Positions 2,935 through 63,488 of a stretch of DNA of 64,000 nt are shown piece after piece (the stretch's first letter is position 1; every line of letters begins with the position of its first letter). Both the position numbers and the translations under genes were made by a program. Below the pieces are notes generated by a model that was not told the DNA's origin, made no database searches, and saw only the letters and a program-made list of their open reading frames with translations. The DNA lies in the NCBI GenBank assembly GCA_015146655.1, contig VKHL01000130.1, positions 1 to 64,000 of the forward strand, given 5' to 3'. This DNA comes from Ochromonas danica. Its lineage: Eukaryota; Sar; Chrysophyceae; Chromulinales; Chromulinaceae.

Positions 2935-4687
2935 ATGATTGACTCTTTGGAAAGCTACCAAGGCTTTGCACTAGGTGGAAGGGTCCAGGATGTGGATGGC
3001 TTCAAGGCCACCATCCGCTACATAGGACCCGTCATAGCTGCGACTGACAAGAACGAGATTTGGCTGGGAGTGGAGTGGGACAGTCAAAGCAGAGGCAAAC
3101 ACGATGGCTCTTGTGTAGACGATAAGGGTGTCTTGCACCGCTATTTTCATTGTCGCCCTGGTTCTGGCTCGTTTATCAGGACTGGCAAGGTGACGAGCGG
3201 TGTTTCTCTTTGCGCCGCGCTGTCTGATCGTTATGGCCAGCCTCACGACCTTGCAGCTGGCGGTGAGCGGCTCTTATCAGATGCCTTTGTGAGGACCTCT
3301 AAAGGCAACCAGAGACCCATCGAGTTCGTCGGAGCGGACAATATTCGCTCCCATCAGCAACTGTCCTCGTTGCTCAAAGCCTCGGCCAGGAATGCTTCCA
3401 TTGCTTGTGCATGTCGCGGAGAGGAAGATTTGCAAAGCCTGGCGGGTCATTTGCAAGAGCTCGACTTGCAAGATAATCTCCTTTCTAGATGGGAAGAAGT
3501 TTTCGCGATTATTTCTAATTTGCGTCAGCTGCGAGTCCTCTTGCTGCACGGCAACAAACTGCAACCTCTGCTGCCGCAGTTTCTACCCCAGAGTGCTTTT
3601 GATAACCTCAAAATTGTTGCTCTAAATGGGTGTGGATTGCATTGGAAAGATGTGCGCTTGTTTGGAGAAGTGGTCCCAGCCGTCGAAGAGCTTTACCTCG
3701 CCAACAATCCCCTTAGCGAGGATTTCCCTTTATCGTCAGAGGATTGCGATGAAGAGCGGAGTGAAAGTGTGTGTGACGATGAAGCAAAAGCTTTCAATTG
3801 TGTGCGCATTCTTGATCTAACTAGTTGTGGTTTGCAATCTTGGTCGCAAGTTTGCTATTTTGGAGGAAAACACGGAATGGAACAATTGCAAGAGCTGCTC
3901 TTGGATGCGAATCCCATCTCACACATTCTTCCGTGCGAAGAAGGTCTATTCTCTCGCTTACAGCGCATTTCCATTGCTCAAACACTGTAAGTGTGCTCTC
4001 TTCAGTGTGTTCAGTGCACATCTAGTAAACACACACACATATGTCTTGCATGTGATTAGGTTGTCTTCTTGGGGAGATATCGATCATCTGAACTCTCTTC
4101 CATCACTCGTAATGCTTCGCTGCTCTCAAGTTCCTCTCTTCTCACATAAAGGTGCCTCCGAGGTGCGCCCGGTGGTCATTGCGAGGCTTCCCAAACTAGC
4201 TGTTTTCAACGGATCGTCTATCACCGCGAAAGAAAGAGTAACGGCGGAGAAGCATTATTTACGAATCGTGTGGCAGGAGATCGCTGGAAGGTCAACGGAA
4301 GATGTTTCGGGCGTGCTTTCTTTGCTTCATCCGCGCTTTCAGGAGCTTTCCACAACCTACGCGGACGATTTGGCTCTTTTCACCAAAGTCACGACCGCCC
4401 AGAATGGGCAGAAGTCTCTCTTGGGCGATTTGGTCTCCGTTACGTTCATCAACTTTTCGTTTTCGACTAATGGATCACTTGAGCCGATCGTTAAACGTCT
4501 TCCGCGGTCACTGACTGTTGGCAAGTTGCGAGCTTTGGTGAAACAGAATTACGGACTCGATCCAGCCGCACAAAAGCTATCTCTGCGTGTCTTCAAGGAC
4601 TCACCGCCCATGATATTAGAAGATGAAGCTACTACCTTACAATACTATGGAATTCAAGATGGAGCGGAAATATTCATCAACGAATAA
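2935..4687 (+). CDS. TBCE: Tubulin-specific chaperone E (TBCE)
   Basis: Two exons (2935-3986, 4060-4687) encode 559 aa. TBCE works with cofactors D and C to assemble and dissociate alpha/beta-tubulin dimers in the cytosol. All three family domains are visible. An N-terminal CAP-Gly domain (about residues 12-85) contains GVEWD, GKHDGS (the GKNDG-type tubulin-tail-binding motif) and GSGSFIRTGKV. A leucine-rich repeat block (about 140-400) contains LQELDLQDNLLSRWEEV, VEELYLANNPL and LLLDANPI. A C-terminal ubiquitin-like domain ends in LQYYGIQDGAEIFINE. The intron splits an LRR, and splicing restores the family-typical LLSSWGDIDHLNSLPSL. ATG at 2935 is preferred because the CAP-Gly begins directly after it. 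Length is close to human TBCE (527 aa). Confidence 0.95.
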
Positions 4688-4982
4688 TGATCGTAATTGT
4701 TGAATTAATTGTTAGGATCAGATTTATCATAATTAACCCTAACTGAATCTATGGTTTAGACTACATCCAGGACATGTCTAACTATGGTCTACATGTACAG
4801 CAAATTATGATGGAAGACAAACCTAGCTAAATCTGGATATCTGGAGGTTTGGAGGTGGGGAGCCTTTCGCCCCACCAGAAGATGAGAGATTGAGAAGGCG
4901 ATTAGCGAGTTATAACTTCAGTTTTGGCTTTTCTTTTGAGGGGGAACGGTGAATGGAGGGTGGCAGGAAGAACGAATAGAAA
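4688..4982. promoter_or_regulatory. TBCE-XPO4 intergenic spacer
   Basis: This 295-bp AT-rich spacer contains one AACCCTAA telobox-like motif near 4734-4741. It presumably holds the TBCE 3' end and the exportin promoter. No gene is seen. Confidence 0.3.
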
Positions 4983-7900
4983 ATGTCAGACTTCATTGCT
5001 TGGTTCGAGCAGCTATGTCTTGAGCTATCGACGAATCCTCGTAGTGCTGCTGGCCAATTTGAGGCCCTCCGCAATTCGGAGACTGTCTTGGAGAGCTGTC
5101 AGGTCGTGGTCCAGTCGCCGGCCACTTCTCCGCTCGCCAAATTTCACGCGCTGGCAGCCGCGCAGTATGCCTTGTTCACGCGATGGAACAGTGGATCGTC
5201 CTCGACCGCTGCCATGCAGTGGAATCAGTTCCTCGAGCATGCCTTGAGTCAGATAGCGCAGGCCCGGAACAACTCCTTGCCTTCCTATCTCACCCAGAAG
5301 ATCGTCCAGTTCTATGTCTCTATCCAGAAGAGGTCCTGGCCGACAATGACGGAAGAAGAGCGAGCCAAGCTGTTCTCTATGGCCGTGTTGTGGTTGCGCG
5401 GCGAGGCGCCTGGCGCTCTGCTGGGCAGTCGCTTGCTGCTGTGCGCGCTGGAAGACTTCAGCTCGCTGCTCTTCTCCGACTACGGCCTCACCTTGACTGC
5501 CTTCAATCAAGCCAAAGTGGGATTTGAGAAGAACTTTCTTGAGAAGATCTTTGTTCTCGTTCTGAGCCAAGTCATGGACCTCACTGTCGATCCCCTTCTT
5601 GTGGACTGGAGGAACGCGAATCTGCTGGAGCTCCTCTTGCATCTGTTCAAAATTATCAATCAGTGTATCACTTGGGAATGCGGCGAGAAAGTCAGTATGA
5701 AAGGAAGTGAGGAGCAAGAGGGATCTAGTCAGCTCGCCACTCACAATCCCCTCCCAGCCATGGCCCCCTTGATCACACACGACCTCTTGCCCAAGACTTT
5801 CGCTCTTTATGCCCATCTCCGAGTGCTATCAACCAATGGCCAAGCAATGGATGAGAAGAGAGCATCGCTTCTTCTCGAGTTGAAAGCTTTGCTCTCCTCC
5901 CTCTCTCTCATAAATAACAAGAACTTGACAGAGGAAGCTCAGAAAGTTATGTTCGTCGATCTCTTTCTGGCCCAATCTTTGGCTTTATCTCAGCCTCATG
6001 TTCAGCGACGAACAATGCAGCTATTGACTTTTGATTCGGAGGACTACGAGTTGGAAGGAAACCAACGAGCCGAGGAGTTGCTGTTCTTTGTCCTTCTATT
6101 CACACAGCTGCTGCAAACACAAGGTCTCAAGGTACTTGGATACAGTGCCTACTTTGGTCCTGTCGTGTCTTTTCTGGGACAACTCACTCAAGTGATCAAC
6201 GGAGAGTTTGGCGCCCTCATTGCTGATGTCATGTTGCTTTCTGCGAGGTCGAACTACGAAAGCAATGGCTTGGAGAGTGATATCTTGAATTGCTGGCGAT
6301 ATGACTTACTCTCAGGTTTGTTGGAGATCTGGGTCAGCTTGCAGGATGATCATACGCTCCTTCAGACCATTCAATGGACTGTGGGACAGAAGAATGGATG
6401 CTCAACTGGCGAGCAATTGCAATTGGCAAACAATCTGACTACTTTTCTCTCTTCCCTCTCGTTGGAGATTTTCCCTTCTCTCTTTAGTCACCTGGTCCTA
6501 ACGTTTACATCTCTTTGTCTGCAAGAGGTGGATGTATTGGAAGATGAAGATCGCGAGCGAATATCTGAGGATCGATTGCATGATTGGTTAGTTCGTCTGG
6601 CTACCTTTGCACGTATGAACATCTCCTCAAGTCTGATGGCGTTGAATCAGGCGCTTCAAAGCATGCATGCGGACTTACTCAATATGGCCAACAACCGCAA
6701 TAAGGACATCTATTGCTTGGAGTACATCCGTCTCTCCATCCTTGTCCTTTCATATCTTCTGGTTGATGACTTCGCAAGTGATGGTAATAGTGACACTCCG
6801 GTGATTACTGTCGCCCTCCTGGAGGGTCTCAAGGATGATTGTAATATTCACTTGTTCATCAAAGTGATGGAGGTGTCGTTGATGATCTTGCAACAGCAGC
6901 TGTCCGCATCAGCCACATCCTTTCCAAGTCATGCTTGCAAAGACTCTCCGGCTGTCATTGAATCCATCTTTAATCTCTTCACCGCTTTGCTGAACAGGTT
7001 TATCGATCCTAACACCGAGAATTATAATTCCAACATGCTTGCGATTTATCCTTTTCTGTCCTCTACGCTGCAAGGTCTGTTAGAACTTGTTGGAATAGCC
7101 TCCTAGCAAAAGGGAATTTGACTAAAATGATGTTCTAACTGCTTTTTTAGGTGCTTTGTGGGATCGTCTAGTGGAGTTGTTGTTGCAGTCGTGCGTGAAT
7201 TCATTGAAAGTTTATCAATTCGAGCTTTCGGTCACAGAGAGTGCTTGTTTGTGTTTGGATGCTTTTCAGCGATCATGTAATCTACATCGTCTGCAGCAGC
7301 TACATTCCATTCTTTCGAGGCATCAGATGGAGTTGTTGCACATCACTATGCAGTTGAAGGGAGAGTTGCTGACCCGGGCTGTTCGTTCAGTTTTCTCACT
7401 GACGTTGAAGCTTCGGATGTATGATTTCATTCAACAGATTTTTGCAATTCTTATGGAGAATCTTTCCGCTTTCCAGGATCTCTCCGATGTTGCCACTGGT
7501 ATCGCTCAACATTCTGCGAAACGCAGCCGAGGTCTAGCTATGTTGTCTGCTGTAGTCAGGTAGGTTGAGAGATTCCACCCATCCTGTGGTTGTTTATTGC
7601 ATGTTCTCACCTTGTTATCTATGAACAGTCTACCAGCATCGGAAGTGGATAACTCTGTCTTCGAGGCAGTGCACGGTTTGGTTCAAATTCTCACCTCTAA
7701 CAGCACGAGGGGAGGGAAAATCGTTCTGGATTTGCTGCTGGAGCAGAGCGAAGAATTGGTAGATCCACTCTTGCGATGCTTAGAACTGGTTATGGAGCAC
7801 TTGTTGCTGCGTCTGCCTGAACAGACTACTAAAATTGTCTATGTCTTGATAATGAGACTTTTTGAGTTCTTTCAGAGACATATTCTCCGTGAACTAAGAG

Positions 7901-27835: not shown

Positions 27836-28459
27836 ATGGCAGGCAGCAATCAACCAGTGCAGATTCGCACCAGAAAGTTCCTTCGCAACTCTTTGCTTGC
27901 GAGAAAGCAATTCGTAAGAAGCGCCATATGCTGTAGTCTTGTCAGGATTTATTCTAATAACAGGTTCTTCCTTTCCTTCCTCTTCGCAGATTGTCGATGT
28001 CATCCATCCTGGCAGAGCCAATGTTAGCCGCTCTGAGTTACAAGAGAAGCTTGCTCAGGTAGAATTTAGTTCTTAACTTTACGAGAAGGCTCTTGTATTG
28101 ACTGCGAAATGTCCTTCTTTAGCTCTTCAAGGTGAAGGAGGTTGACCGTGTCTTTGTCTTTGGCTTCCGCACCGCTTTTGGTGGTGGACGCAGCAGTGGC
28201 TTCGCTCTGATATACGACTCTGTCGAGGCTGCCAAGAAGTACGAGCCCAAGTACAGATTAGCCAGAGTAAGTAACTCTGTTAGCCTGATGTTCCCCATCG
28301 CTTGTCACTGACAGACAACCTTGCTTCTGACAGAATGGTTTGGCCAAGAAGAGAGAGGGCTCTAGAAAGCAGATCAAGGAGAAGAAGAACCGTGGCAAGA
28401 AGGTCTGGGGTCTGGGTCGTCGTCTCGCCAGACACAAGGCCAAGAAAGCCGACGCTTAA
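27836..28459 (+). CDS. RPS24: Small-subunit ribosomal protein eS24
   Basis: Four exons (27836-27913, 27990-28058, 28123-28266, 28334-28459) encode 138 aa. eS24 is a eukaryotic/archaeal protein of the 40S subunit. The whole chain matches the family: [59 protein letters not shown] and [19 protein letters not shown], then a basic tail ending [11 protein letters not shown]-like. Length equals human RPS24 (about 133). All introns are phase 0 with consensus GT-AG ends. Codon usage is more biased than in neighbours, as expected of a highly expressed gene. Confidence 0.97.
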
Positions 28460-28710: not shown

Positions 28711-31700
28711 CTAGGCATGCGCCAACATATGAGCAGCATCGTTGAGTCGCGTACCCCGAGTGTTCAAACTAATCTCTAGCTGCTTGGAGAAATGTTGGGA
28801 AGCTTCGTCGTCCGAGGCACCTACAAGAAGCTTTTCATAGATCCACATGACATCTTTCTCAGCTTGCAATTCGGGCAGATTGCAGGGGATGGCAAGGGAG
28901 AAGAGCGAGACCAAAAGCATGGAGTGCTCTCTCAGGATGTTATAAACATCACAACAGAGATCGACGAAGGCATGATACTGCTGTTCACCTCCGATGACAC
29001 ACTTCATAGCAGGTGTGAAGACAAAAGGGGCACGCTCTCTTTTCACGCCTAACTTTGACTTGAAATTGCCTAAAATATGCCCAAAGTCGATATGGAAGAA
29101 GTGGCCAGACTTGGTAATCATGAGGTTATCGTTGTGACGATCTCCCAACCCAAGCACATAGGATGCAACACAATAAGCTGCCGTGGAGATGGTGAAGTTT
29201 TGAACTCGCCTAAAGCCAAACGAGTGTAAGGCCTTGTTAAATTTCGCTCAGAAGGGAAATTGATTCACTCACCTTTCGTATTCTTCGTTTCTATTCGCTT
29301 CTTCAATACCTTCTTCTTTGATCTGATCTTTGATCCAGTTAGAAATAACCGAGAAGTCGCTCACTGCTCGCATTGCCGCTCCTAGCTTTCTAGATAACGA
29401 ACCAGACTTACTGGCACCACCCTTGCTTTTAGTCTGCGAGTCCGTTGCCTCCATCAAAATGCTACCTAAAGTTGTGGCATTTAAGACGACCTGCAAAAGG
29501 CCGCGCTCATCGCCTGTGGAAATGCAATCATAAAGCATCATTCGCATATCCAATCCTTCTCGTCTCCAAAGATCATTCATTACGCGGAGAAGTTGAATAA
29601 TAAGAGCATCTTGCCGAAGATCGTCACCAACCTTGAGCATGAGCACAACATCTGGACCACCTGATGCATTCTTCAACGTTAGCCACAAAGGTTTCTTCTT
29701 GGATTCCATTACTCGACATCGATCAACGTCGATTCCACAGACCTAAACAAACCACTGTTAAGAAGTCAGCGAGAACAGAAATACATATCACCTCACCGTT
29801 AAATGTGGATTGAGGGGAAGTTTAAATGCCGTTGGCAACACAATTTCCTTTAAGCGATCGCGCAAGATACGTTTGCGATCCTCCTTCGTTTCGCCCAATT
29901 TGACGGCTTCAGCAACATGCTCTAATCTACGCATGACAAACATTTGATGGCCAAGTTCAATACGATGATGGCCACAGTTTCGAATGTACACCTATAGGGA
30001 GTACAGATCATAAACATTAAACGAGAAAGATCCGTTGCGAGGAAGAAGATTGAAAATACCTGTAGAAGGACAATGTAGCGTTTGCTCACATCAGCATTGT
30101 GAACTTCTGACTGCAACAGCCAATAATAAATGTGTCCGATGAGCTTGTTGTTAGTCAATGCCCGGCGAAGAAGATATCGAGCCAAGGCAGAATCAACGAA
30201 TGTCTCAAACTTGAGTTGTTGACACAGCTGTAGCATGTAGAGTGCTAGTTCTTCATCAGGTAGATCTTCCAAGCAGTGAACAGCGAACGCGCGGACTTTG
30301 GGATCCATAAAACGGCGATCAAGCAACTGCAGAGCTTGGACAGCTGTTGGTTGTTTCCACAGATCGAGGAGATCATAAAGCTCTTGAACACGCTCCGCTT
30401 TGTTCCACCGCACACTCATAACAAACGCAGGGAGCAGTTCGGCTCTATGGAGGATAGAGAAACGAAGGTCCCAAAGCAGATCTTTATCTGCTGAGGACAG
30501 CATCGACAAGCTGAGCGGATTGAACGAAACTTGAAGAATACGATCCAACTCTAGCTTGTGAGCTTCGGAAAGACTGTCTTCACCCGCTATCTCATAGTCG
30601 ATAGGGTCATTTCGAGCTGGCAAACTGTGTACGACTCGAACGCGTGGTGTGCCGCTATCTTCCGCTAGCACTAGATCAGGCGCAAGCACGAGGTTCACCA
30701 CGCAAACAGTTCCCTCCTTTCCATTGCTTAAAGTAGTGCTTACAGGAACCTCGACTTCACGTTCTTCTTCTGGAAAGAAATACAGTTCCTTCACACAATC
30801 CAGACAGCCTTTGAAGTCGTAGAGAGTACAGGCAGACCATCCAAGCGGAATACGGCCAGCAGAAGTTGCTGCAGCAGCACCTAATTGGGTAGAACTACTT
30901 GTGCGCTTTCGCCGGCAGCCATAAATCTTAATCAGCGCGCGCGTAGCACGAGGGAGATCTCTCACTGCTATGTTGAAAGACAGCCGTTCCTGCAAGGAGA
31001 GCACCCACTGACCATCATTGTTACGAGCCAATCGACTGGAGGTTCCCCTAGTAGATGTCTTAGGAGCAACTTCAACGGAAAGAGTAACAGGCTCGCATAG
31101 AGGAGTCATAGCCAAGAAGAGTGCAACCTGCACTTCCAGGAAAGCCAAACCCTCCTTAGCCAGTACATCTAAAGTCTTCGATCCCAATACCAGAGTAGAT
31201 AGATCAATCTGGAAGTTTGAGTTGACATCCGAAGATTGCAAGAGCATGAGGCCGTCTCCTACGCCTTGACCTAGCGCCTTTTGTGGTCCACTTCCGCCTG
31301 AATGAATGAAGACTTCAGTTCGACCCAACAATAGCTCTGACAGCTGCTCTGCCGCTAACTCCAAAATACGTTGCTGCTCACCAGAAAAGCTCTCTTGACT
31401 ATTATCCAGCCTGTTATTGACCTGCAGCATTCCCATAGCCTCTCCAGTGAGTGGATGACGTAAAGGCACTCCCAACACTTGTCGTGTGCGGTATCCTGTT
31501 CTCCGATCCATGGTTGCGTCAAAGCGAGGGTCTTGATAGGCATCAGGAATATTTACTGGAGCATTGGTTTGAAGCACAGCTCCAGCTAGTCCTCGTACTG
31601 GGAGACGAACACCCTTACTGCGCTCTGAGATCTTAAGAATCATACTCTTTCCATCTTCACTCAAGACGAAGAAGCCCACACGATCCACTTGCAATGCAAT

Positions 31701-32492
31701 CTTTACCGTCATAACCATTCGACTCATAACTTCATCAGGGGACAATTCGGGAGTGAAAGCGGTGCCTAGTTCATAGAGAATGCGTCGCACCTTCGGCGAA
31801 CTGGCCATTCGATTTATGTCGAGAATATTCTCCACGTGCTTGAAGAGAGAGCGCATCTCATGGTCTTTTGACCAGTCTACATCAACGTTCGTATCATTGC
31901 CAATCAATGCATTACTTCCACTGATGAGCTCCTCGTAAACTGCACGGCTGAAAGTGAGACAAACGGTGTCGTGGATGGCTCGGATGGAGGCGGCACGCTT
32001 TTCAGACGTCATCAACGCTCTCTCACCAAAGTAACACCCTTCAGTTAAGCGATTGACAATTCGCCCAAGATCTCCTTTCTTGAGCAAAGCTGGCTGGTCT
32101 TGAATGAGGACGTCCACGGCGCCCTTGTTGATGACATAGAAGACGTCTCCATCTTCTCCCTGGCAGAAGACCACGTCGCCACCTCGATACGACACAACAC
32201 TGGCCTTTTGCTCAAGCACGCAGAGCTGCTGGTCGCTAAAGTCTGAAAAGGCAGGAACACTGGCAAGAAAGTCCTTGGCACGCATCTGCAGCCCCTGCGA
32301 TGCCACCATGGAAGGATGGCGCGAGGCTTTCTTCGATTTTCTCGGTCCATTGTTGTATAAAGGATTTTCAAAGACAACTTTGTCATTATTGGTCTTGACA
32401 TAGAGGGAAAGGCGGGCGGCTTCTGAGAAGAGGGGCATATAGTTTGAGTCGATGATCTCTAGGCAATAAGGATAATCCTCGCGAACACCCAT
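28711..32492 (-). CDS. Class I-like phosphoinositide 3-kinase with N-terminal cyclic-nucleotide-binding and GAF domains
   Basis: Four exons on the minus strand (32492-30060, 29991-29797, 29742-29273, 29209-28711) encode about 1198 aa. A single 2.4-kb exon carries, without interruption: a CNB domain (about residues 75-190; FGERALM...KRAAS keeps the phosphate-binding-cassette Glu and Arg), a GAF domain (about 235-390; NIPDAYQDPRFD, TGYRTR, GMLQVNNR), a PI3K C2 domain (about 445-640; SFNIAVRDLPRATR, then TLYDFKG) and the start of the PIK helical domain. Later exons give the kinase: LPLNPHLTVCGIDVDRCR, KVGDDLRQD, LGLGDRHNDN catalytic loop, IDFGHILGN, and the activation loop KLGVKRERAPFVF, whose basic residues are typical of class I enzymes that make PIP3. 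No clear Ras-binding domain is seen. Ala after the cassette Arg suggests cAMP preference (inference). The frame is open upstream through non-ATG codons to about 32545, so an extra 5' exon is possible. Confidence 0.9.
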
Positions 32493-32959: not shown

Positions 32960-35900
32960 CTATGGAATACAACGGAGTTGCTCCTCAATCATCATTTGCA
33001 TCTTGGCCGAGGAGATGCGTCTGGATGGCTCAAATGACCAGGCAACATCAAGCTACAACAAGACAGAGGGTTAGGGGGTTAGGGTTCGGATAACTATATA
33101 GTGGTCAAGTAAAACATCAGCTTTACCATGTTGCGTAGCCACACGAGATAGGGATGGTCGGGTAGAGCTTCCATGCCGTGTATTCGAAGGTCTGGTCGTA
33201 AACCATCCTGCAGCAAGTCCACGAATGCCGCCATCGTTAGCTCTTGAAAGCGTGTATCGTCAAAAGGAACGAGGCCCGTGGCAATCTCAAAGATGACCAT
33301 GGCCAAGGACCAAACATCTGCAGCTTCAGTAACATTCCGCTCTAAACGGGTAGAGGATGCATCGCCAGCCAAGCCGCTTGCCAGCATCGTCAGCCTCAAC
33401 GTCTCGGGACTAGACCAATTGATATTACTAAACAACACCACAGCAATGGAATTATCACATAGGCCATAGCTAATAGCATGAATGAAACATATGTCATTAT
33501 TACCTGGGCAGAGTCTTCCAGCGCGAAGCCACGCCCATGTCTTGTCTCGCTCGCGCTTCACCCAAATCCGCCAATTTTATTCGCAGATCCTCAGTCACTA
33601 TGCCAAATTTAAGATAATTTGACACATCCACGTCAAAATAACTAAGGAAAGAGACTTACCCAAGAAGTTCAAAGACTTGATGTCGCAGTGAATGAATCCC
33701 TTGGAATGAAGATAAGCTAAGCCAGCACAACAATCGCGCATCATGGCAAGGCGCACACGGACAGGCAACCAACTAGATATCGTGCTATTGAGCAAGGAAG
33801 ATATACGTATTGATTCCTTGTTAACACCGAGTCGACTGCCAAGATCGCTGGGATTATTGGGAGTTGCTGCCTGGGCGAGAGAGGACAGCAGCGCATTAGT
33901 GGTCGCTACGTTACTTTTGTCATTGCCGGTGATAAGCAACAAAGAGCGAGTGTTCCAGCGCCCACTTCGTAAAGAAGCACTTTCTTCCAAATGCTTGGCT
34001 CTATTCCGTGACAAACAAGCTCAACAACACAACGAAAAACAAGAGTCATGAAATCAAGACACTCACCGAGTAGATTTGGAATAAGAGAGAGATTTTTGCG
34101 ATTTCTGCGATTTTTCGGTTTCAATGAGTATTTTGCGTGGACCAAGGCCGAAGCCCATCTCTCTTGTGAGCATCACCGAGGAGGGAGACATCAGCCGCGC
34201 ACTTGTTGTGCCTTGCCTGATAGGAAGCCTTGTTGGCTGAAATCCTCGTTTGACAACTTGATCATCAGACACAGCTCTCTCGTTGCTACGGTTATCCAGG
34301 CGAGTGGCGAAGGTTGTGATCGGACTGCTGCTACCATCATCTCTTGAGTGCTGGGGACTTCTGGCCAACGACTGCTTCAGCAAATTGCATTCTTCATTGC
34401 TGGGCCTATTGGTCGGGTAGGAATCTCCTGTCATACTATCGCTCAATAGTGCCTTTCGGGCCGAGAGCAATGGACTAGATCGTACGCTACTGATGCCCAT
34501 CCCAGCGCGCTCCTCCTCCAGCAAACGATAAAAGCTCCCCGCCCCAGCATTGTAGCTCTGATCCTCGATATCCCCTGAAACATCGTGGGCGGTCGAATGG
34601 TCTCTAAAGTTCCACATTGTCCATCGAATAATACATGGACAACAACAACTGCCCTCTTCTTCATCTTCCGAACGTTGTGGCATCGCAGAGGTAGTCGTAG
34701 CATCCAGATAAGCCATATCCTCAGCAGATATCAAGCCAGCTTGGAAGAGCACGCGCTGCATAGTCTGGTTATCCTTCTTGGCGTGCAAGAAGTCGAAAAG
34801 AGAGCCATGAACGCAGAACTCAGTGACGAGGGAGAGCGCAGGGGGCATGATCGCCACACCCTGACAGCTCACAATGTTCTCATGCTGCAAGCTGTTGAGA
34901 AGCGTCGCTTCTTCACAAAAAGAGATTATTCTCTCCGGAGTGAGTTCCATGCAAAACAAAAACTTTATTGCCACCTGGTAACATCATGAGGATAGATGAG
35001 CACCGCAATCGCATGTAGCAGGCGACGAAGGAGGAGAAAAACCTGTTGTTCATGATAATAACCCTTATATACTCTTGCTGTGCCTCCGGAAAAGAAGCCC
35101 GTCGTGTCCAAGGTCAACTGGCTGAAGGGGATGATCGGCACCACCTTGCGCTCGAATTGGATCACCGAAGAAGTCACCAGCTTCACGAGATCACGATCCA
35201 TATCCCAAATACCTAATAAAGGCTCATTTAACTGACCACCTTTGCTGTCACGATACAGTCCTAGACAAGAGCGAGGAGACAATTAGCACATCATCTTGAT
35301 TGGGTGGAGATTGGAGACCATTACCTTGCCAAAAGCGGGAGTCAAAGGCAAAAGCCAGCACAATAAACCAGATTTGTAGAAACTCCATGACTTCTAAGAC
35401 GATTTCCACAGTGCACGCAGCGGATCTGCTCTGATGGCCGGTATAAATGAGCAGGCAGCCCATCTGCAGCAAGAGCGAAGCCAGATTAAGGCCAGAGAAG
35501 ACGTTGAGAGCTGGACGGCGAGACAAAATGCGTTGTGGTGCGAGAAGGACAGCAACGTAGAAGACGAGTAGTTCAAGGAGAATGCCACAGGCGGAGATGA
35601 GCAACGCCCTGAACCCCACTGTCAAGTAGAGCGAGAGCGGAATGCTGAAGCTTGCTGCCGTCCACAGACTCCCCAACAATAAGCTGCGCTTCGCAGATGA
35701 CAGCCCAATGCTAGGGTGCATGAGGAAGATGCTCACACTCTCAGAAGCGCAACGCAAGACGAACCACTTGCCCAGAGAGAAGAAGGGATTGTCCGTGAGC
35801 AGTCCTAACGCGCTCACCACTCCCACAAGCAGCATCGCCACTATCAAAGTCACGACAGCGCTGAGATACACAGGCAGCATATAGGAAACGATGAAGGAGA

Positions 35901-36069
35901 AGGGTTTCCATATCTTGCAGACGAGGCGATTGAGCATGGTGAGAATTAGGACAAGGCTGAAGATAATCTCCACCACACCCACTATGAAATAGGGCAGTGG
36001 AGCCCACCCAATATGATCATCACTCGAGCATGTGTGATAGTCACCGAAAGAGATGTCAGGATATGCCAT
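32960..36069 (-). CDS. Seven-transmembrane protein fused to a TKL-type kinase
   Basis: Seven exons on the minus strand (36069-35325, 35260-35043, 34974-34067, 34000-33660, 33597-33504, 33427-33127, 33052-32960) encode 899 aa. Residues 1-249 carry about seven hydrophobic helices (roughly 25-47, 58-90 as one or two, 102-117, 130-150, 153-177, 188-210, 222-242). A cytosolic kinase follows: FFSGGTARVYKG loop, VAIKF lysine, CEEATLLNSLQHENIV (alphaC Glu), GFIHCDIKSLNFLV catalytic loop, IKLADLGEA (DLG in place of DFG), SSPETL, ADVWSLAMVIFEIATG, and RRISSAKM at the end. HCD replaces HRD, so it is a non-RD kinase. A Ser-rich insert of about 280 residues splits the lobes after FDFLHAKKDN. Similar GPCR-kinase fusions are known in oomycetes and other protists. 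Ligand and substrate are unknown. It diverges from Prp3. Confidence 0.88.
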
Positions 36070-36213
36070 CCTTTCTTGATCTATCGCTTCTGAGTAAACG
36101 AAATCGAACGCCGGATGAATGATAGAGTTAAGGAAATACAGTACCAGTTAAGGAAATACATAAGAGCTCTGGCCTTCTTCTCTTGGTGAGTAGAAGAGTA
36201 AAATAGGATTAGA
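36070..36213. promoter_or_regulatory. Divergent promoter with 15-bp direct repeat
   Basis: Only 144 bp separate the start codons of the 7TM-kinase and Prp3. agttaaggaaataca occurs at 36126-36140 and again at 36146-36160, a likely shared cis element or recent duplication. Confidence 0.5.
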
Positions 36214-49043: not shown

Positions 49044-50129
49044 TCGTACATAAGTCCTATCATTTGTAGATTAATTACATTAAATGATTAGCAAGGGTTT
49101 TCGCACGTACAACGTTGAAAAGACAGGCCATCTACAGGTACTTCAACTGGGGACATTGCTTCATGAACACACTGAGAATCATTTCTTCTGGTGTTTAAGA
49201 ACTATAGCAAATCTGCAAAATATGAACTATTGTGAACTATTTAGTTCGAAGGGTCGGTGTTTCCCACAACGATAGTGCAGAACGTATGACCATAACATTC
49301 GGCGACCATTCCAAACGGCAAGACTATTGTGAAGGCAATCCGTGACTGCTTGGCGAGGAGCTTAGCTAATCCTACTCACAAGATTCCAAGGAAGAGGAGT
49401 ACATCAGTGAAGGATGTTGACGATGCCTTGATTATCTTTTCCAAAGGCTGCTCAAAAAGCTGAAAGTCCTCTTCCTCATGCAGTGCCAGGCGACCGTTGC
49501 GGCAGACTTTTGTCGACAGAAGAAACCTAGCCATTATTATTGCTTAATTGCTGTAGTAGCACGTCCGGCTTCGTTTTAGCAACGATCCAGTAGCCGGACC
49601 TCCTGCGCTTAATGGTTCGGTTCGCAGCAGCAACACAGTTCTCCCAAGAGCTGCCACTCTTAATTTGTTTCCTGGAAAGCACTCTGGAGGCTCATTTCGT
49701 TCTCATTTGGTATCACTCCACAACTTTGTCTCGAAGGTGTTCATGAGATCGAACGAAGAGGAAAGAGGAAGGGGAGGGAGAGGCAAGCCTTCAAAGATCC
49801 AAAACAAACAAAACAGAACAGCAAGTGGAACTTCCACTTGCACCTCTCCCACGCGAAACGGCACGCTGTATTTTCAAATGGGCCAAAAGGTGATTACAAA
49901 GTCATAAAAACGCAGTTGAGGGCGGGAGTGGGTTGTTTAGGCAGTCAAAGCAGAGCAAAGCACGTCATCCGATCCTGCTGCGTGCTTCCCCCGTCGCCCA
50001 GGCTTGCCTCTGCAGCCGTCCCATCTTACAATCTTCCCTTCTGTGATCCCAGAAGGCCTGAGAGAAGAGCTATTCTTGCTTCGTCAGAATCAAACAACAC
50101 CAATTGAGTTCTACTCAAGATCTTGAAAT
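49044..50129. other. 1.1-kb spacer without a recognised gene
   Basis: The longest gap in the right half. Short frames (for example 49084-49275 and 49665-49907) show no domain. No tRNA-like box pair or repeat longer than about 12 nt stood out. It contains the NNT promoter close to 50130. Confidence 0.4.
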
Positions 50130-53100
50130 ATGTTGCGTATTGCTGCGCATCTTCCAAGTGGCATTCAATCTTGCCGTCTTCATGCGCTGCGTTCAACACG
50201 CGCTTTAAAAGGTTTAATCGTCGGTGTACCAAAAGAAAGTCTGGAAGGAGAGTATCGTGTTGCCCTTGTCCCTTCGAATGTCCAGCGTTTGCTCAAGGCC
50301 GGCGCTGTGGTCAACATTGAACGAGATGCAGGTATCTTGAGCGGCTACAGCAATGAGCAGTATCAACAAGCTGGAGCCCAACTTGTGGGATCCGATGATG
50401 TTTGGAAGTCCCCAGTGGTTGCTAAAGTTCGCCCTCCTACTGACGAGGAGGCGGCCAAAATCGAGAACAGGACGTTGTTGTCCATTGTCCAGCCCAGAGT
50501 GAATACTTCCTTGATGGACAAGTTGGTTGAGCAAAAGGCCACAGTGTTGTCGCTGGACTCCTTGTTGCGAACTCTTTCAAGAGGGCAAGCATTTGATGTC
50601 CTCTCCTCCCAGGCAAATGTTGCTGGATATCGCGCGGTGGTGGAAGCTGCTCAGCACTTGCAACGTCCCTTCGCCGGACAAATGACTGCAGCAGGTAAGA
50701 TTCAACCAGCCAAGGTATTGGTTGTGGGAGCTGGTGTCGCTGGATTGGCCGCCATCCAGCTTGCAAAGAAGAAGGGCGCCATTGTCTATGGCTTTGATGT
50801 TCGTGCAGCGGCCAAGGAGCAAGTTGAGAGTTGCGGAGCCAAGTTTTTGGAAGTGCAAGTAAAAGAGGATGGATCCGGTGCGGGTGGTTATGCCAAAGAA
50901 ATGTCCAAGGAATGGTTTGAAGCTGCTGATAAGATGCTTCTTGAAGAATGCAAGCACATGGATGTGATTATCACCACGGCTCTAATCCCTGGTAAGCGTG
51001 CACCATTGCTTATTAAAAAGCCTATGGTGGAGAACATGCCATCTGGTGGTGTTACTGTTGACCTGGCTGCTTCACAAGGAGGAAATGTGGAAACTACTGT
51101 CCCTGGTCAGGTTGTGAAACACGGTGGAATCACTTGTGTGGGCTACAACAACATGGAAAGCCGCATGGCCTTGACTGCTTCTTTTCTTTTTGGAGGCAAT
51201 GTTACCAACTTGTTGTTGAGCATGGAGGATAAGAAGACCAAGGATTATGTCATTGATCTAGAGGATCCCGCTGTTCGTTCGATTTGTGTCGCTTTGAAGG
51301 GCGAACGTTTGCCTCCTTATGTGCCTCCTGCTGCTCCTGCACAAGCGGCTCCAAAGAAGCCAACTGAAGTCAAGAAGGAAGTCAAAACTCCTGAAATCAT
51401 TCAGAAAGAATATTGGAGTTCTGCTCTGTTCAGCACGGCTGGAACTACCACAGCTCTCGGTCTTGCTGCACTGGTGCCCAATGCCCCGATGATGAGCACC
51501 TTTGCTCTCAGCTGTTGGGTCGGTGAGTGATGGAGACCGTATTTCTCTATTTCTGTTTAGCTAAATTGAATCCTGCTGTCATAGGTAACAGTTGCGTGCA
51601 GGGTGTGACCCACGCCTTGCACTCACCTTTGATGGCTATGACAAATGCCATTTCTGGTATGACCATCGTTGGTGGAATGCTCCAATTGGGCGGAGGCCTT
51701 GTTCCTACAAATCTTCCCCAAGCTTTGGCTGCCGCGGCAGGTAATTAGGTGTTTTATATACATTGCTACTCTTTCAACATACTAACGTATGGGTTGTGCG
51801 CTTTAGTTGGTCTATCTGCAATCAACTTGGCGGGTGGAACGATCGTCACAAAGAAGATGTTGGATATGTTCCGTCGAGCCGACGACCCTCCCGAATTCAA
51901 CCATTATTACCTTCTTCCTGGAGCTACGGCAGTTGCTGGCTCAGGATTGCTTTTTGCGATGGGGCTCAATCCTCCCGCTTTGGCCCCCACTTTGGCATTG
52001 GCTTCTGCCCTGGGCTGTGTGGGAGGTATTTCTTGTTTGTCCTCCCAGAAGACTGCTCGACTAGGAGTGGCCGTTGGTATGGGTGGTATTGGTACTGGTT
52101 TAGCAGCTACTTTGGCGTACATGAACCCTGCAGACATTGCAACATACGGCCAGTTGTTGCTGCTTGGTGCTGGTGGCGGAGGAGCAGGTTATCTGATCTC
52201 CAAAAAGATTGGTCCCACTGAACTTCCACAAGCTGTCGCTGCTTTCCACTCCTTGGTTGGTGTTGCTGCTGCCTGCACTGCTGTTGGTGACTTCTTGATT
52301 CACGATCCTGCCACTGTCGCTTCAACCTTCCACAACATTAGTACTTATCTCGGTGCCTGGATGGGCTCAATTACAGCTACTGGCTCAATTATTGCTTATG
52401 GAAAGCTTTCTGGTGCTCTCGGCTCCGCAGCTCTGCAGCTCCCTGCACGCGATCAAATCAACATGGGTCTGGCTGCTACCAGTGTCCTTGGCTTGGCTGG
52501 CTTTTGTGTAACGGGCGATCCAACTCTTGCTGCTCTATCTCTTGGCACTGGTGTAGCTTCTAGTGGCCTCTTGGGCTTGCACATGACTCAGTCTATCGGT
52601 GGTGCTGATATGCCTGTGGTCATTACCTTGCTCAATTCCTACTCTGGTTGGGCACTCTGTGCCGAAGGCTTTATTCTTGACCAACCTCTTTTGACTGTGG
52701 TTGGTGCGTTGATCGGCTCTTCTGGCGCATTCTTGACTCGTGTTATGTGCGAGGCTATGAATCGTTCCCTGCCTAATGTCATTCTGGGTGGCTTTGGAAC
52801 TACTACTGTTGCTCCTCAAGGCGGAGACAAGAAAGTGGAGACCCGCATCCACAGAGAGATCGATGCCATAAATACCGCTGAGGCTTTGAAGAATGCTGAG
52901 AAAGTTGTGATTGTGCCTGGCTACGGTCTTGCTGTGGCCCAGGCCGCCAGTGTGGTCGCTGATATCGCCTTGAAGTTGCGCAAGGACGGCAAGGATGTCA
53001 AGTTCGCTGTCCATCCTGTTGCTGGCCGCATGCCTGGCCAACTCAATGTGATGCTTGCGGAGGCTGGTATTCCATATGACATGGTGCATGAGATGGAGGA

Positions 53101-53374
53101 GATCAACCCTGAAATGGACTCCGTCGATGTGACCCTGGTCATTGGTGCCAACGATACTGTCAACAGTGCTGCTGAGGAGGAACCTGGCAGCGCTATTGCT
53201 GGTATGCCCGTTATTCAGGTATGGAAGTCTAAGAGTGTCGTCTTCATGAAGCGCTCCATGGCATCTGGCTATGCTGGTGTGGACAATCCAGTGTTCTTCA
53301 AGAACAACACGGAGATGCTCTTGGGTGATGCGAAGAAGACTTGTGAAGCCATTCGTGCTGAACTTTTGAAGTAA
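50130..53374 (+). CDS. NNT: Proton-translocating NAD(P)+ transhydrogenase, single chain
   Basis: Three exons (50130-51522, 51585-51740, 51807-53374) encode 1038 aa. NNT couples proton entry to hydride transfer from NADH to NADP+ in the mitochondrial inner membrane. N-terminal residues ([22 protein letters not shown]) look like a presequence. Domain [41 protein letters not shown] (NAD site), [14 protein letters not shown]. Then a transmembrane block (PntAB-like, about 430-520), the PntB membrane region ([20 protein letters not shown] onward) and domain III ([23 protein letters not shown] site; [20 protein letters not shown]). The order alpha-then-beta matches animal NNT; apicomplexan-type chains have the reverse order. 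Length matches human NNT (1086). Confidence 0.97.
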
Positions 53375-62408: not shown

Positions 62409-63185
62409 CTATCGATTGTTCTTCCATGGCTGGAACTCTACGATCCTGCAGGGACACACGAAAATGTAAAAGAACTGACCAATCACGGCAAAAAATAGCA
62501 ATGCTTACCGATACACCACATCTGCTTCTTCCACTCGTTCCCTCACCACGCTCGCATCGAGATCTTGTGCCTTCAGGTATTCGCAGGTTTTCTCTGTGAG
62601 GAAAGTATCGCAGGGGAAGTCTTGGCTGATAATCTGGGTGAGGTGCAGGGTGTGGAAAGAGGGATGAAACAGACTCTCCTCAAAGAGCTTAGCTCCACCT
62701 ATCACCACAACTTTCTCCACAAGATCCTTCAAAGGAGGCGCAGAGAGGAGGTTCAGTGCTTCCTCGAAGGACTGCACCACATGGAGGTGACTGGCGGGAG
62801 AAGGGTGGGTCTTCTCAATAGATGAACTCGTTACGACCACATTGATCCGGCTCTGTAAAGGTCTCCTTGTCAGCGGAATACTCTCCCATGTAACTCTCCC
62901 CATGATCACAGCGTTCATTTTCGAGGAGTCCTCTGTTTCAGTGGTGCACTGGCGGAAGTAGGCCATGTCTTGTTTGAGATGCTTGTCTTGTACGACCCAT
63001 GGGACAGTGCCGCGATAACCTATTCCCCATGATGGAGTGACAGCAACCACGGCAGTAATCGGAAGAGGAAAAGGTACACGACCAGGAGAAGCCAACATTT
63101 CAATAGTTCCGAATCGGTTTTTGTTTTTGGCGGTGAAAAGTGACAAACACGCAACTAATAATAGCAAAACATACCAGAAGGGCAT
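62409..63185 (-). CDS. Dihydrofolate reductase, monofunctional, with signal peptide
   Basis: Two exons on the minus strand (63185-62509, 62445-62409) encode 237 aa. DHFR reduces dihydrofolate with NADPH. Family motifs: ITAVVAVTPSWGIGYRGTVP (substrate/NADPH loop with Trp and Gly), MGRVTWESIP (cofactor loop), RPLQSRINVVVTSS, VVVIGGAKLFEESL and the final strand VYRIVEFQPWKNNR, completed by the 37-nt second exon. A stop follows, so there is no thymidylate synthase fusion. MPFWYVLLLLVACLSLF plus TAKNKNRFG forms a signal peptide with a basic follow-on, unusual for DHFR. Upstream in-frame codons before 63185 lack ATG. A conserved core start at MLASPGRVPFPLP is the alternative, giving a cytosolic enzyme. 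Confidence 0.9.
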
Positions 63186-63488
63186 GATGCTTTGAATGCT
63201 TTTGTTGAAAGAACACAAGAAGCTGTAGTGGTGATGCCAATGATTCGCTTCGAAGGAAGTTTTACAATGAAGTCAGAGATGATTTATCTAAGCAATGTGT
63301 TATCTACAGTAGTTGTCTCCTTCTGCTCTACTCAGATCTGTCTCGTAATAATACAGTTGCAATGTATTGATGACAAGAAGCTCCATAAGGTTATGGATGC
63401 AAATGATTAAATCTATTTACTAAAAGCCATCGCCGCCTCGTCTTGAGGGGGTGGAAGAGTATCATGGAGGGAAGGAAGAAGGTCCTTT
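63186..63488. other. DHFR / cathepsin spacer
   Basis: 303 bp between codirectional minus-strand genes. No feature seen. Confidence 0.3.

Follow-up and report, generated by a model that had tools for sequence, protein, structure and literature searches.

Regulatory architectures of described PI3Ks

In the sections of the survey drawn on here (Philippon et al., 2015; PMC4617754), bikont sequences are assigned to a single class I/II group, the two classes having split only in the ancestor of Unikonta, and the bikont ancestor of the group had a Ras-binding domain (RBD). Class III PI3Ks are described there as a C2-PIK-kinase core without extra domains, and opisthokont class II PI3Ks as carrying a PX domain and an additional C2 domain. 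The survey sets out the ancestral layout rather than every protist protein, and earlier unnoticed cases of other layouts are possible. Similarly, the class I enzymes TtPI3K1-3 of Tetrahymena are given as RBD-C2-PIK-kinase in the relevant part of PMC3823935. The original prediction for this locus had assumed that animal and fungal PI3Ks alike use Ras-binding and adaptor-binding modules; the fungal half of that statement does not stand, as class I and II are absent from Fungi according to the same sections of PMC4617754.

A PI3K with CNB and GAF domains

The window, that is, the whole stretch of 64,000 nucleotides of Ochromonas danica DNA that was analysed, contains on its minus strand a PI3K gene at positions 32492-28711. 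A computed splice model divides it into four exons coding for 1198 residues plus a stop codon, with exon junctions at residues 811, 876 and 1033 and introns of 68, 54 and 63 nt, GT-AG in each case. Pfam profiles find five domains in the protein, all above the curated cut-offs, in the predicted order CNB-GAF-C2-PIK-kinase. The CNB (cNMP_binding, PF00027) covers residues 100-191 (31920-32195, minus; 6.5e-16) and the GAF domain (PF01590) residues 252-385 (31338-31739, minus; 2.6e-14). The C2 domain (PF00792) at residues 457-598 (30699-31124, minus) reaches 9.5e-11 in a scan restricted to residues 378-662 and is recovered as 478-598 at 1.1e-9 in the whole protein. It is followed by the PIK helical domain (PI3Ka, PF00613) at residues 662-823 (29956-30509, minus, across intron 1; 6.9e-46) and the catalytic domain (PI3_PI4_kinase, PF00454) at residues 910-1148 (28864-29643, minus, across intron 3; 1.8e-58).

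No RBD (PF00794), p85/adaptor-binding domain (ABD; PF02192) or PX domain was found in the whole protein at Pfam E-values up to 1, nor in residues 1-81 or 378-662 at E-values up to 10, and Pfam detected no additional C2 domain, a class II trait. The N-terminal 81 residues have no convincing match, and NCBIfam returned only CNB-type matches far below cut-off. The stretch that links GAF to C2 (residues 386-456; 31125-31337, minus) is, at 71 residues, short for an RBD, which usually comprises about 100, and Pfam finds no RBD in it. An AlphaFold2 model of exon 1 made without an alignment had a mean pLDDT of 35.2 and was set aside.

An RBD upstream of the gene was also considered. From 32493 to the stop codon that closes the neighbouring minus-strand frame at 33094 there are roughly 600 bases, and the minus-strand frames of at least 60 codons that touch them, leaving out exon 1's own frame, measure 89, 64 and 62 codons, which is too short, although a domain split over short exons is possible.

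In the predicted protein, the CNB-GAF pair thus stands at the N-terminal position where an RBD is expected, as had been proposed when the pair was said to replace Ras-binding and adaptor-binding modules: Pfam finds neither module, and the pair occupies their position. Because the bikont ancestor had an RBD in the layout given by PMC4617754, this arrangement is a departure from it.

The putative sensor domains

The best PDB matches of the CNB are the cGMP-dependent protein kinases 9p74, 5ezr, 4rz7 and 5dyk, which we take to be apicomplexan, followed by PKA RII-alpha. The E-values (1.3e-29 for 9p74, 2.5e-23 for PKA RII-alpha) are summed over several CNBs per chain, and the best single stretch of 9p74 gives 2.4e-08. 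The cassette YFGERALMTSEKRAAS retains its Glu, the ribose-binding residue, and its Arg, the phosphate-binding residue. In alignments with CNB domains of PKG, both residues, within YFGERAL...KRAA, fall opposite their counterparts, which bears out the earlier reading of an intact cassette with Glu in FGE and Arg in KRAAS; together with the PF00027 match they place the domain in the CNB family. CNBs that prefer cAMP usually have Ala after the cassette Arg, and those that prefer cGMP have Thr or Ser. The Ala found here leans towards cAMP, although as a whole the CNB resembles PKG. Most likely the CNB binds cAMP (or cGMP).

For the GAF domain, the best PDB match is 4mcw ('metal dependent phosphohydrolase'; 1.8e-17), presumably a phosphohydrolase of HD-GYP type, with which it has the core NIPDAYxDPRFD...DxRTGYRTR in common. 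The cGMP phosphodiesterase 3lfv (5e-17, summed over stretches) and then the adenylate cyclase 1ykd (5.4e-15) come next. Cyclic-nucleotide-binding GAFs of the phosphodiesterase/cyclase type carry the NKFDE motif, the position of which reads N-R...F...Q-Q here (NNRLDNSQESFSGEQQ, residues 359-374) and is degenerate. Since the motif is degenerate, the GAF is not counted as a cyclic-nucleotide binder, which leaves the CNB as the basis for proposing that the protein binds cyclic nucleotides. This second domain had been predicted to be a GAF of the phosphodiesterase/cyclase type: that it is a GAF holds, with matches to phosphodiesterase and 1ykd, but the closer typing needs correcting, the best match being a phosphohydrolase, and is not supported by the NKFDE position.

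These results bear on the main rival explanation, in which the fused PI3K is the same but its CNB and GAF no longer serve as cyclic-nucleotide sensors and instead bring about dimerisation, determine where the enzyme is located or bind a different small ligand. Some CNB domains keep the fold yet bind other ligands or none, and both the degenerate NKFDE and the fact that the best solved match of the GAF is the phosphohydrolase 4mcw, not a phosphodiesterase, favour such a role. The CNB, however, has the cassette Glu and Arg in place and resembles the domains of PKG and PKA, and we regard a purely structural or other-ligand role of the pair as unlikely, while giving it more weight than any other alternative.

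The kinase core and its class

Over the helical and kinase regions, identity to both p110-beta and p110-gamma is 43%. The motifs GDDLRQD, GDRHxDN and DFGH are invariant among the three proteins, so that the full set of catalytic motifs is present as originally read; YFGERAL, EKRAAS, GDRHNDN, HIDFGH and KSKLGVKRERAPF can all be located in the sequence. The last of these, the activation loop, had been assigned to class I and is indeed class I-like: it matches KSKFGIKRERVPF of p110-beta and is basic, of the KRER type, as in class I. In class I enzymes such a basic loop goes with PI(4,5)P2 as substrate, and PIP3 would be the product proposed for this enzyme. The kinase part has 29 extra residues relative to p110-beta and p110-gamma, at 975-977, 990-1006 and 1015-1023. 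The longest of the three inserts, 17 residues at 990-1006 (29353-29403, minus), could be a regulatory loop.

The presence of C2, PIK and kinase domains in order, with intact catalytic and metal-binding motifs, places the protein in the PI3K superfamily. Its position within the superfamily is less simple, as it has the activation loop of class I but neither the RBD nor the p85/adaptor-binding domain (which belongs to class IA only), lacks detectable class II features (PX and additional C2), and carries CNB and GAF domains where class III (Vps34) enzymes have no extra domains. A "class I/II-type" PI3K is the safer label, one drawn from pairwise matches.

A class III-like enzyme that produces PI(3)P and has acquired extra domains is a further alternative, and the C2-PIK-kinase core is common to class III in the survey sections cited (PMC4617754). 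It is nonetheless very improbable: the 60 listed PDB matches, out of 244, are by name class I chains throughout, KSKLGVKRERAPF agrees with the class I activation loop, and the class III enzymes in those sections of PMC4617754 are without extra domains.

Evidence for a single gene

Exon 1 (30060-32492, minus), delimited by its open frame, the splice model and the coding score, encodes the N-terminus, CNB, GAF, C2 and the helical domain up to residue 811. The original prediction had it contain only the start of the helical domain after CNB, GAF and C2; the three complete domains are there, and of the helical domain it holds most (662-811 of 662-823) rather than the start. As was also claimed, its 811 codons run without a stop, within a stop-to-stop frame of 872 codons on the minus strand (32540 to 29922; first ATG at 32492). 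Twenty random sequences of 64 kb generated by a first-order Markov model had longest open frames of 143 to 246 codons, and exon 1 is therefore not a product of chance. Furthermore, the coding score of its reading frame is positive in all 20 forty-codon blocks (codons 1-800), both linkers included, and the two other frames score lower in every block. The training set for these scores was 11 further long frames in the window, taken from stop to stop and uncurated.

Exon 2 (29797-29991, minus) encodes residues 812-876, comprising the end of the helical domain and the stretch up to the kinase domain. Exon 3 (29273-29742, minus) carries LMLKVGDDLRQD and the extra residues seen in the alignment with p110, and exon 4 (28711-29209, minus), placed by the splice model and motif positions, carries GDRHNDN, HIDFGH, the activation loop and the C-terminus. 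A PDB search matched residues 485-1194 to p110-beta (E 1.1e-121), and the alignment crosses all three splice junctions without a gap. For the third intron, a 27-nt candidate (29273-29247) would keep the frame and give 1210 residues, but it starts with GG, not GT, and was rejected; the 63-nt GT-AG intron chosen gives 1198 residues and is gapless against p110-beta at that junction. The gene model reproduces the length and both ends given in the original prediction.

Because the p110 match runs unbroken across the three junctions, the CNB-GAF sensor part and the kinase are, on the splicing predicted here, a single gene read in one frame. The helical domain, which spans intron 1, ties exon 1 to the later exons.

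Relatives and literature

Searches of viral and prokaryote contigs returned no homologue with the order CNB-GAF-C2-PIK-kinase. The whole protein had one pattern match in viral contigs, which was not confirmed; the helical-kinase alignment had 85 matches in viral and 154 in prokaryote contigs, none confirmed in either set, and none of the 52 viral matches of the CNB-GAF part was confirmed. The least probable of the alternatives is that two genes encode the sensor and the kinase separately, or that an assembly artefact joins them: these contigs hold no homologue to confirm the layout, but the stop-free first exon has a coding signal continuous through both linkers, includes C2 and most of PIK along with CNB and GAF, and is joined to the kinase exons by a PIK domain that spans intron 1.

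In prokaryote contigs, a relative of the CNB-GAF part is encoded by 269 of 513 matching stretches, of which 80 were kept. By their tblastn ranges, 79 of these loci match on the GAF side only, and one (L021) matches across CNB and GAF. When the CNB of the window was used by itself as a phmmer query, no CNB turned up at E-values up to 1e-3 among 2227 open frames of the 80 loci, a zero that is weakly informative given that Pfam does find a CNB in L021. There, positions 3929-6676 of a Deltaproteobacteria MAG encode, according to Pfam, a CNB, two GAF stretches, PAS and a class III cyclase domain; such a cyclase may sense its own product class. The predicted CNB-GAF pair is as such not confined to the PI3K gene, and no descent from L021 is claimed.

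Among the titles and abstract openings listed in a literature search, no PI3K with a CNB or GAF domain appears, and such a protein goes unmentioned in the excerpts of PMC3019232 (on P. infestans protein kinases), PMC9694693, PMC6033456, PMC5784254 and PMC3823935 that were consulted. The suggestion that this is not a described PI3K class agrees with these titles, openings and excerpts, and the claim of novelty extends as far as they do.

Neighbouring genes in the window

Upstream of the PI3K gene, the minus-strand region 33094-36147 begins with a multi-span membrane frame (35248-36147) that has five separate hydrophobic stretches and no Pfam match, continues with protein-kinase frames (PF07714 in 34063-34983) and ends in a frame (33097-33576) that by itself has no Pfam match. 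If these pieces form one gene, as we infer, it reads like the GPCR-TKL bigram described for oomycetes in the part of PMC6033456 concerned. Downstream and convergent lies an exon for ribosomal protein S24e (28123-28308, plus; PF01282, 1.4e-16), the gene of which seems to have more exons on both sides. Further away, a full-length 5S rRNA gene (1745-1863, plus; 91.7 bits) is the only Rfam match of the window at gathering score. An NAD(P) transhydrogenase (50127-53374, plus) has an alpha part at 50127-51530 (PF05222, PF01262) and a beta part at 51749-53374 (PF02233), and the two probably belong to a single fused gene interrupted by an intron. A dihydrofolate reductase domain (PF00186) is found at 62505-63272 on the minus strand; thymidylate synthase follows this domain in many protists.

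Proposed mechanism and significance

With moderate confidence, we favour a class I/II-type PI3K in which CNB-GAF replaces the RBD, and in which a cyclic nucleotide at the CNB would release the core or bring about membrane contact and so lead to PIP3. cAMP (or cGMP) would bind the CNB, and the helix after the cassette, together with the 60-residue linker, would pass the change on to the GAF, which probably acts in dimerisation or as a second sensor. The C2-helical-kinase core would then be freed from inhibition, or would contact the membrane differently, and would convert PI(4,5)P2 to PI(3,4,5)P3. Gating of a PI3K by cAMP or cGMP is suggested here by the domain content and the intact-looking CNB cassette. 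More tentatively, a protist PI3K lineage may have swapped Ras control for a direct route from cAMP/cGMP through the CNB to PIP3 within one molecule, a route that would bypass protein kinases, GTPases and adaptors.

cAMP/cGMP and PIP3 are among the main second-messenger systems of eukaryotes. The connection between these two usually runs via several proteins, and the enzyme proposed here would unite them in one polypeptide. It would also show that the class I/II lineage is not tied to control through the RBD, and cell biology would gain a ready-made source of PIP3 that is switched by cyclic nucleotides.

Comparison with known systems

Among known systems, the class I enzymes p110-alpha, -beta, -gamma and -delta have the same C2-helical-kinase order, catalytic motifs and KRER-type loop. 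Unlike them, the present protein has CNB and GAF at its N-terminus, no RBD or ABD that Pfam could find, and 29 extra kinase residues in three places. Protist class I/II PI3Ks such as Tetrahymena TtPI3K1-3 have the C2-PIK-kinase core as well and probably belong to the same group; theirs is combined with an RBD in the sections cited (PMC4617754, PMC3823935), whereas CNB-GAF is found here instead. The CNBs of PKG and of PKA regulatory subunits resemble this one in sequence and in the intact cassette, but the output here is a lipid kinase rather than a protein kinase, and a single CNB stands against at least two matching stretches in those proteins. The GAFs of cGMP phosphodiesterases, 1ykd and 4mcw are the nearest counterparts of the second domain, with a core shared with 4mcw; the GAF described here differs in its degenerate NKFDE and in being joined to a PI3K. 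Finally, the bacterial CNB-GAF-GAF-PAS-cyclase of L021 likewise places a GAF after a CNB, but it is a prokaryote protein with a nucleotide cyclase as its output, where the Ochromonas gene has a PI3K.
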